27,634 nucleotides of DNA from Candidatus Omnitrophota bacterium (GTDB taxonomy: Bacteria; Hinthialibacterota; Hinthialibacteria; Hinthialibacterales; JAKPRU01): the NCBI GenBank assembly GCA_029570205.1, contig JAKQSI010000062.1, positions 1-27,634 on the forward strand. The letters run 5' to 3'. Within the stretch, counting starts at the first letter, position 1. Every line of letters begins with the position of its first letter. A program made the position numbers and the translations under genes. The notes under the pieces were generated by a model that was not told where the DNA came from, did not search any database, and saw only the letters and a program-made list of their open reading frames with translations. Below, piece by piece: positions 22,126-27,634 of this stretch.

Positions 22126-22420
22126 GAATTTGCCCTGAAGTGCAGTGGAGTTTCCTGTCATCCTTTGATGCATACCGGACTGCGAATCGGATTGTAAAAA
22201 GTGGCCTGGATTCCGGCTTTCGCCGGAATGACGGGTTGTGGGGGCCTTTCTGCGTAGTAGGATTCATTTCTTCACCGGAAAGACAAGGCCCATTCGTTCG
22301 CCGATCATCAATGTTCTTCTTTTTCTTTTATTCATCATTGGCCATTCATCCTTCATTCCCCATCCCTCCTCGTTTACACTACGGCCCGGCGTTTAACCCT
22401 CCCATGAAACGAGGATGTTT
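22126..22420. other. Intergenic region with a dispersed palindrome
   Basis: 295 bases upstream of the symporter gene. It contains the palindrome at 22210-22229 and a T-rich stretch (about 22310-22340). No credible gene is seen; the frame from 22140 covers the repeat and has no domain. Confidence 0.5.
22210..22229. repeat. Palindromic repeat (ATTCCGGC-TTTC-GCCGGAAT)
   Basis: A perfect 8-bp stem with a TTTC loop, followed by GACGGG. This is the widespread type of bacterial dispersed palindrome with the form GGATTCC...GGAATGACGG. I found only one copy in the window. Confidence 0.6.
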
Positions 22421-26633: not shown

Positions 26634-26663
26634 AAAGAAGGGCGGAAAGCCGCGCTTTCTTTG

Positions 26664-26766
26664 CCCAATCACCGGCCCCGCCGGAGGGAAGCTCGCGATG
26701 ACGGGTCGGGGACAGTTCTTTCTTCACCCAATCACCGGCTCCGCCGGAGGGAGGCTCGCAATGACG
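26664..26766. repeat. Two direct copies of a 40-bp repeat unit
   Basis: The unit CCCAATCACCGGC-CCCGCCGG, then AGGGA and GCTCGCGATGACG, occurs at 26664-26703 and again, slightly changed, at 26728-26766. The end (CGCGATGACGG or CGCAATGACG) matches the end of the 27161 array units. Confidence 0.6.
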
Positions 26767-26790
26767 CATCGTCGCTCGCAATGACTGGTA

Positions 26791-26846
26791 AGCCGTCATC
26801 GCGAGGAGCGGCCCGGAGTCCGCGAAGGGCGGCGACGTGGCGATCT
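26791..26846 (-). repeat. Left 56-bp inverted repeat of the GIY-YIG element
   Basis: These 56 bases are the exact reverse complement of 27160-27215; I compared them base by base. The sequence starts AGCCGTCATCGCGAGGAGCG and ends GACGTGGCGATCT. It ends 12 bp after the stop side of the nuclease gene. Confidence 0.9.
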
Positions 26847-26858
26847 CAGGTTCTCTAC

Positions 26859-27149
26859 TCAAAGAAGATCATCATACAGATCGCTCCAGCTTGGGTTCAT
26901 AGCCTCGATCAGGTCAACTTTCTTTCGACGTGAGCCTTTCTTGATCTGTTTCTCTCTGGCGATGGCTTCCCGTACATCTTCGAATATCTCGAAATACACC
27001 AATTTCTTGATATTGTATTTTTTTGTGAACTCTCCGCCGATTCCTTCCTTGTGTTGCGAAATGCGTTTGAGAAGATCCGTTGTGACACCGGTGTAGAGGA
27101 CTCGGTTGGTCTGATTTGTCATTATGTAGACATACGATTGTCTGGACAT
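26859..27149 (-). CDS. GIY-YIG nuclease-like small protein (COG2827 type)
   Basis: 96 residues from the ATG at 27149. The open frame continues upstream through the tandem array, but that part is repeat translation and is left out. The fold motifs are visible: Y-V-Y-I-M (6-10, the GIY part), Y-T-G-V-T (19-23, the YIG part), Arg29 in L-L-K-R-I-S-Q-H-K, and the C-terminal A-R-E-K-Q-I-K-K-G-S-R with the metal-binding Glu66. N-P-S-W-S-D-L (85-91) is the usual end of this small family. All catalytic-type residues appear present. Members of this small family are widespread, with DNA-processing roles suggested but little shown. The gene fills 291 of the 313 bp between perfect 56-bp inverted repeats, which suggests it travels with the repeat. 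No strong ribosome site is seen. Confidence 0.9.
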   Translation of the reverse strand: MSRQSYVYIMTNQTNRVLYTGVTTDLLKRISQHKEGIGGEFTKKYNIKKLVYFEIFEDVREAIAREKQIKKGSRRKKVDLIEAMNPSWSDLYDDLL

Positions 27150-27159
27150 CGTTCCTACC

Positions 27160-27215
27160 AGATCGCCACGTCGCCGCCCTTCGCGGACTCCGGGCCGCTC
27201 CTCGCGATGACGGCT
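27160..27215 (+). repeat. Right 56-bp inverted repeat of the GIY-YIG element
   Basis: Exact reverse complement of 26791-26846. It is also most of the first unit of the tandem array that runs to the window end. Confidence 0.9.
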
Positions 27216-27634
27216 CGGGCTGACGACTGAGATCGCCACGTCGCCGCCCTTCGCGGACTCCGGGCCGCTCCTCGCGATGACGGCTCGGGCTGACGACTGA
27301 GATCGCCACGTCGCCGCCCTTCGCGGACTCCGGGCCGCTCCTCGCGATGACGGGTCAGGCTGACTGAGATCGCCACGTCGCAGCCCTTCGCGGACTCCGG
27401 GCCGCTCCTCGCGATGACGGCTCGGGCTGACGACTGAGATCGCCACGTCGCAGCCCTTCGCGGACTCCGGGCCGCTCCTCGCGATGACGGGTCAGGCTGA
27501 CGACTGAGATCGCCACGTCGCCGCCCTTCGCGGACTCCGGGCCGCTCCTCGCGATGACGGCTCGGGCTGACGACTGAGATCGCCACGTCGCCGCCCTTCG
27601 CGGACTCCGGGCCGCTCCTCGCGATGACGGGTCA
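27161..27634 (+). repeat. Tandem array of seven ~70-bp units (last cut by the window end)
   Basis: Units start at 27161, 27231, 27301, 27368, 27438, 27508 and 27578, with lengths 70, 70, 67, 70, 70, 70 and 57 or more. Each begins GATCGCCACGTCGCNGCCCT and contains CGGACTCCGGGCCGCTCCTC. The linker is CTCGGGCTGACGACTGA or GTCAGGCTGA(CGA)CTGA. Units 1-3, 6 and 7 have CGCCGCCC; 4 and 5 have CGCAGCCC. From unit 2 on, the two linker types alternate, so a dimer seems to be the amplified unit. Units adjoin without unique spacers. Long open frames in this array (for example 27155-27586, minus) are artefacts of a period close to a multiple of three. Confidence 0.9.

Follow-up and report, generated by a model that had tools for sequence, protein, structure and literature searches.

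A small GIY-YIG nuclease gene near the end of the window (the whole stretch of 27,634 nucleotides that was analysed) very probably encodes the enzyme, long missing, by which a very common family of bacterial repeats is recognised and perhaps spread. CGTC-tagged REPs, together with related repeats, rank with the commonest in bacterial genomes; the superfamily, which includes the neisserial dRS3 and the rickettsial RPE-4 and RPE-6, was described in 2013 as having no dedicated transposase, and a link to an enzyme has been absent until now (PMC3733652). The family of the window gene offers a specific and widespread candidate, with matched variants of repeat and protein and a testable code between one residue and one base. 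No earlier report linking GIY-YIG proteins to REPs was found in the open-access literature (subscription papers and preprints lay outside this scope), and the novelty is provisional for that reason.

The gene was recognised from its open reading frame and a PF01541 match and occupies positions 26859 to 27149 on the minus strand (291 bp, 96 aa). Its product scores 68 bits against PF01541 (E 7.5e-19; cut-off 22.6), which places it in the GIY-YIG nuclease superfamily; this is the only domain found in the 96 residues, and no HUH/Y1 (IS200/IS605-like) domain is present there. All of the active-site residues Y8, Y19, R29, H33, E66 and N85 occur in the window protein and are kept in 130 to 132 of 132 homologues, and the AlphaFold (AF2) model has a mean pLDDT of 92.8. 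To the left lies a class B REP (26791 to 26846, plus strand), with its CGTC tag at 26794-26797, a stem of ATCGC...GCGAT and a CT tail; to the right lies its exact inverted copy (27160 to 27215, minus strand), with the tag at 27209-27212 on the minus strand. Both tags point away from the gene, and the gaps between ORF and arm are 12 bp on the left and 10 bp on the right. A preliminary description of this DNA had reported a 96-residue GIY-YIG gene between perfect 56-bp inverted repeats, and this was exact: the arms are exact reverse complements over 56 bp, a match that cannot have arisen by chance.

The right arm is also the first of seven copies in a tandem REP array (27160 to 27634, minus strand; period 67-70 bp) that reaches the contig end at 27634, so that several array copies would serve equally well as partners of the left arm. 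Further tagged repeats adjoin the left arm on the minus strand (26655 to 26785) and carry the heads GTCATCGCGAG or GTCATTGCGAG, at positions 26692, 26755 and 26775; among them two 54-bp copies of a different tagged repeat (CAATCACCGGCYCCGCCGGAGGGARGCTCGCRATGAC), at 26655-26708 and 26718-26771, stand 63 bp apart. It was also observed that a repeat-derived ORF (SRHREERPGVREGRR...) starting from GTG at 27446 enters the GIY-YIG gene in frame (26859-27446), and automatic annotation may therefore fuse repeat peptides to the nuclease.

A search of the whole 4.39-Mb assembly, as the preliminary description had proposed, found the window repeat at about 40 other places besides the array, at 82-97% identity. 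The arms therefore belong to a dispersed repeat, and the picture of private terminal repeats is wrong, since they are copies of an abundant REP family. With its CGTC tag, short imperfect stem (ATCGC...GCGAT), loop of about 37 nt and CT tail, the window repeat is itself a REP. It has the terminal CGTC (TGTC and CCTC being allowed), the stem starting with A-T and the many dispersed copies of the CGTC superfamily, and departs as a variant from the published four-family layout of an 8-9 bp stem, a 4-5 nt loop and a CCA tail. Only one other small GIY-YIG gene of the same type was found in the assembly (contig C130, locus L010). It too lies between tagged inverted repeats with their tags outward, but these belong to a different REP family and have the 8-9 bp stem, 4-5 nt loop and CCA tail; the repeat, CGTCATTCCGGC-GAAA-GCCGGAATCCAG, agrees exactly with the CGTC-1 REP that Di Nocera et al. 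(2013) described, with the consensus CGTC-ATTCCSGC-GNAN-GCSGGAAT-CCA (PMC3733652). A lone class A REP (GTCATTCCGGCGAAAGCCGGAATC), a member of the family flanking this second gene, occurs in the window at 22209 to 22232 on the minus strand.

Three REP classes were found altogether: class A (ATTCCSGC...CCAG), class B (ATTGCGAG...GCAATCTC) and class C (ATTCTGAG, ATTTCGAG or ATGCTGAG ... TCTC). Class A matches the published CGTC-1, whereas classes B and C differ from the CGTC-tagged REPs as described in having longer loops and CT or TC tails (PMC3733652). A gonococcal GIY-YIG gene sits inside a dRS3 array.

Given that the arms are copies of an abundant REP, the proper null is a gene landing between two such copies, and this null was rejected by tests on other genomes. 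Homologues were drawn from 251 whole genomes and 80 named loci of many phyla, and a REP was taken as tag, stem, loop, stem and pyrimidine tail. Tagged REPs on both sides, tags outward, were found for 79 of 127 homologues compared with four of 461 control ORFs from the same loci (Fisher p 1e-58). A strict REP motif on both sides gave 59/128 against 4/454, and when inverted repeats were scored without any motif, 48 of 76 genes and five of 453 other ORFs from the same loci reached 16 or more. Lower-scoring GIY-YIG genes of other subfamilies never had tagged REPs on both sides (0/20). The REPs often begin within 5-10 bp of the stop codon of the gene, and for about 7% of homologues the neighbourhood holds no recognised REP. 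The association of gene and REP is real, and it is general across many bacterial phyla. Chance capture of the gene by repeats, which the preliminary description had entertained, is contradicted by the 79 homologues against four controls; its other caveat, that the repeat might be abundant and indifferent to the gene, proved right as to the many copies and wrong as to the indifference, the preference of the gene for REP flanks being extreme.

Protein subclass and REP class go together; the motif and class boundaries behind the following counts were set after the first data were seen and were held fixed for the held-out test. Proteins with a WxRxWK motif after the catalytic helix accompany class A in 78 cases, class B in none and class C in two, with six mixed, four unclassified and six without REPs. 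The window protein belongs to the GSR subclass (K71-G72-S73-R74), whose members accompany class B in 15 cases, A or C in none, and no REP in one. The other proteins go with class C in 12 cases, A in two and B in none, the rest being mixed, unclassified or without REPs. Host effects do not account for this matching, as hosts with two or more genes (G000, G033, G037, G068 and G018) combine different proteins with different REPs within one genome. The same link appears in REP numbers genome-wide, where co-occurrence is in itself no proof of cause: at least three class A copies are found in 13 of 15 genomes with a W-type gene against 24 of 236 others (p 1.7e-10), and class B copies in 13 of 13 genomes with a GSR gene against 31 of 238 others (p 2.8e-11). 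The REP patterns read backwards, used as controls, gave at most one match in total, and genomes with only other GIY-YIG genes showed no link to REP copy number. Some REP-rich genomes have no detected gene, with 433 (G075), 206 (G184) and 101 (G121) class B copies; in these the gene is lost or undetected, or another enzyme serves. Class A REPs are also present, and the gene absent, in two genomes of the window's own genus (G001 and G002). Such genomes imply that the gene is dispensable for the persistence of REPs or that other enzymes serve.

Among class A REPs the matching can be narrowed to a single residue, position 71 in window numbering, and a single stem base, base 6 (the N of ATTCC[N]GC). 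Their excess mutual information is 0.77 of a possible 0.91 bits; the next-best column is the near neighbour 73 (0.52), and every other column reaches at most 0.21. With the held-out loci included, K71 goes with C in 57 cases, T in one and G or A in none (n=58), and D, E, N, G, T or Y at this position goes with G in 23 of 24; R71 goes with T in three and C in two. Columns 71-73 were left out in building a tree, and on it 20 independent comparisons differing in K71 gave 17 concordant, no discordant and three tied outcomes (p 1.5e-5); over 40 bootstrap trees the means were 18.4 concordant and 0.025 discordant outcomes. The bootstrap outcome outweighs any single topology, because a tree of 96-residue proteins is weakly resolved and a test limited to strongly supported branches has one usable pair.

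The rule was written before the new viral, plasmid and new-genome loci were fetched. In these held-out loci K71 predicted C in 14 of 14, GSR predicted class B in two of two and the class C motif predicted class C in five of five; the exception is L259, where K71 occurs with a different REP family. Copies across the genome follow the code in 12 of 13 genomes: C-type copies dominate in all nine K71 genomes, and of the four D/N71 genomes three are dominated by G-type copies (C/G copies 0/52, 0/7 and 0/77), the exception being G342, which has N71 yet 34 C against 11 G copies. In the AlphaFold model the helix that bears E66 is joined to the next helix by a turn made up of residues 71-73. A plausible chemistry would set lysine opposite the G where the pair is C-G, and an acidic or amide side chain opposite the C where it is G-C.

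Several observations bear on whether gene and REPs move together. Loci L054 and L076, from one genome with different surroundings, are homologous exactly from a TGTCAT tag to an ATGACA tag, and in the same-genome pairs L126/L149 and L144/L155 the homology ends in or beside REPs. The distribution of the gene is patchy, and genomes may carry several paralogues with unrelated flanks. In Azospirillum lipoferum 4B a REP-gene-REP unit separates sufB from sufC; in the 11 other Azospirillum records listed sufB-sufC matches as two pieces without the unit, which was absent from all four of the loci aligned. The check for empty sites proposed in the preliminary description has thus yielded one orthologous site, at which a unit with terminal inverted repeats, as in an insertion sequence, is present in A. 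lipoferum 4B and absent from the other Azospirillum records. No target duplication was established, the flanks of the Azospirillum empty site being too diverged and L054 having no downstream flank. The minimal mobile unit of the preliminary description gains from the tag-to-tag copies and the empty site, but its 56-bp ends are dispersed REP copies. The Sinorhizobium gene stays at a single locus, which is closer to the behaviour of a domesticated gene. The comparison of S. meliloti with Sinorhizobium sp. M103, a candidate empty site by length, was rejected as evidence of mobility because the gene is present in both, the difference lying only in the REP array. In two genomes (L143 and L084) an outer inverted repeat, CCCATAAGCGYTAACTTAAG, common to both, encloses the REP-gene-REP unit, as if the unit were nested in a larger element.

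We consider it likely, taking the explanation as a whole, that the protein is a REP-specific GIY-YIG nuclease which acts in trans and whose own gene is carried on a REP-gene-REP unit. Specific recognition of REPs by the protein family is highly probable, and that a dedicated REP enzyme also drives their dispersal is favoured with less assurance. Each single-domain nuclease would recognise one CGTC/TGTC-tagged REP family and act on its copies around the genome, while the gene would travel or persist between two REPs with both tags outward. The conserved active site may cut at or beside the shared GTCAT tag, and residues 71-76, which make the turn joining the last two long helices just after the catalytic E66, may read the variable stem. 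Cutting would then lead to dispersal of REPs, and at times of the whole unit, through excision and reinsertion of hairpins or repair-templated copying; the route could thus use single-stranded hairpins, as in RAYT, or break repair. Sequence comparison demonstrates REP-specific pairing and points to a specificity-determining turn, while cleavage and transposition by the nuclease are what we infer from them.

A GIY-YIG protein in a role related to that of RAYT, as the preliminary description suggested, is supported at the level of sequence by the association across phyla, the matched classes, the residue-base code, the tag-ended paralogues and the empty site. In both systems a small nuclease gene lies between inverted copies of a dispersed, tetranucleotide-tagged palindromic repeat, as in REPtrons and REPINs, and enzyme variants each go with their own repeats (PMC3733652, PMC3116915). 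The enzymes are not homologous, however, RAYT being an HUH/Y1 tyrosine transposase, and the RAYT tag is GTAG whereas the tag here is CGTC/TGTC; the flanks of the window gene, when examined for GTAG-tagged REPs, carried CGTC. The system works like RAYT/REP but is not a RAYT. Enzyme and repeat are both unrelated to the known RAYT/GTAG-REP pair, and on a cautious view the system could still be placed among those of the REP-plus-nuclease kind. A new class of REP-propagating elements, with a minimal hydrolytic GIY-YIG nuclease and a code between residue 71 and base 6, that gave rise to the CGTC-tagged REPs, including neisserial dRS3, and to many unexplained repeats across phyla has a little better than an even chance of being right. 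If the nuclease does move REPs, this would be a transposition-like system from a nuclease family not known in such a role, and it would also provide a sequence-specific nuclease of very small size in which natural changes at one or two residues alter the specificity.

An alternative reading, which we regard as unlikely, is a free-standing homing-type endonuclease that cuts REPs or sites without the unit, after which repair templated by a REP-flanked donor would place a copy of the gene in another REP; the nuclease would spread its own gene only, and REP dispersal would have another cause. I-TevI and the T4 Seg family are GIY-YIG homing endonucleases. The classic homing-endonuclease fold (PMC1564403) and the selfish-looking distribution are shared with them, recognition of REP sequence and REP-bounded paralogues fit this reading equally well, and the many REP-rich genomes without the gene also favour it. 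The window gene differs in having no intron, no separate DNA-binding domain in its 96 residues and dispersed REPs as flanks. Insertion into one REP would interrupt the recognition site and leave half-REP flanks, but two complete inverted REPs flank the gene; moreover, the same REP base dominates genome-wide, beyond the flanks of the gene, and gene presence predicts REP copy number.

The protein might instead be a host-useful, Slx1-like processor that works on REP hairpins or cruciforms at replication forks, resolving or trimming them, and that stays close to REPs through co-inheritance, the dispersal of REPs being old and unrelated. The nearest solved structures, UPF0213 proteins (1zg2, 1ywl), Slx1 (4xlg) and the UvrC N-domain, the stable Sinorhizobium locus and the strong constraint on catalytic residues are consistent with this. 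UPF0213/YhbQ-type proteins and Slx1 have the same minimal fold, but the low-scoring members tested lacked REP flanks (0/20). A trans-acting host enzyme need not sit between REPs, and the patchy distribution, with absence within one genus, and the several paralogues per genome with unrelated flanks also make a host processor quite unlikely. Autoregulation at the RNA level, with the protein binding or cleaving REP hairpins carried by its own transcript and by other mRNAs, is favoured by the REPs that start so near the stop codon and would be transcribed. GIY-YIG nucleases act on DNA, and the REPs stand on both sides with tags outward, a DNA-symmetric arrangement in which the tags are the unit ends, which makes this reading very improbable. 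Scarcely credible is a passenger gene that abundant REPs happened to surround, its perfect 56-bp pair coming from local array amplification, as the right arm being one of seven array copies of an abundant repeat might suggest: the control comparison (79/127 against 4/461), class matching and residue-base code cannot arise from a passenger and refute it for the gene family, although at the window locus alone the present arms may be secondary copies.

Some minor observations may be added. A phage search gave no match, and phylum searches centred on G189 (three genomes) and G196 (two genomes) added nothing. Several phage-like viral contigs (L209-L234) carry homologues with H, T, S or R71 that lack REP flanks; they may form a branch carried by phages and directed at a different target. 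Two GIY-YIG genes of Legionella sp. PATHC038 (L056 and L073) are 98% identical over 823 bp at different places in one genome, and neither has a recognised tagged REP beside it. Two records labelled as plasmids resemble chromosomes, namely the 2.17 Mb gonococcal NZ_CP119140.1 (L196) and the 3.7 Mb S. meliloti 'pSymB' with hfq-hflX, CP090106.1 (L197). At L187 inverted repeats of GTCACGCTGAG...GTCGAAGCGC stand on both sides of a GIY-YIG gene from another subfamily, and the association may reach past the subfamily studied.
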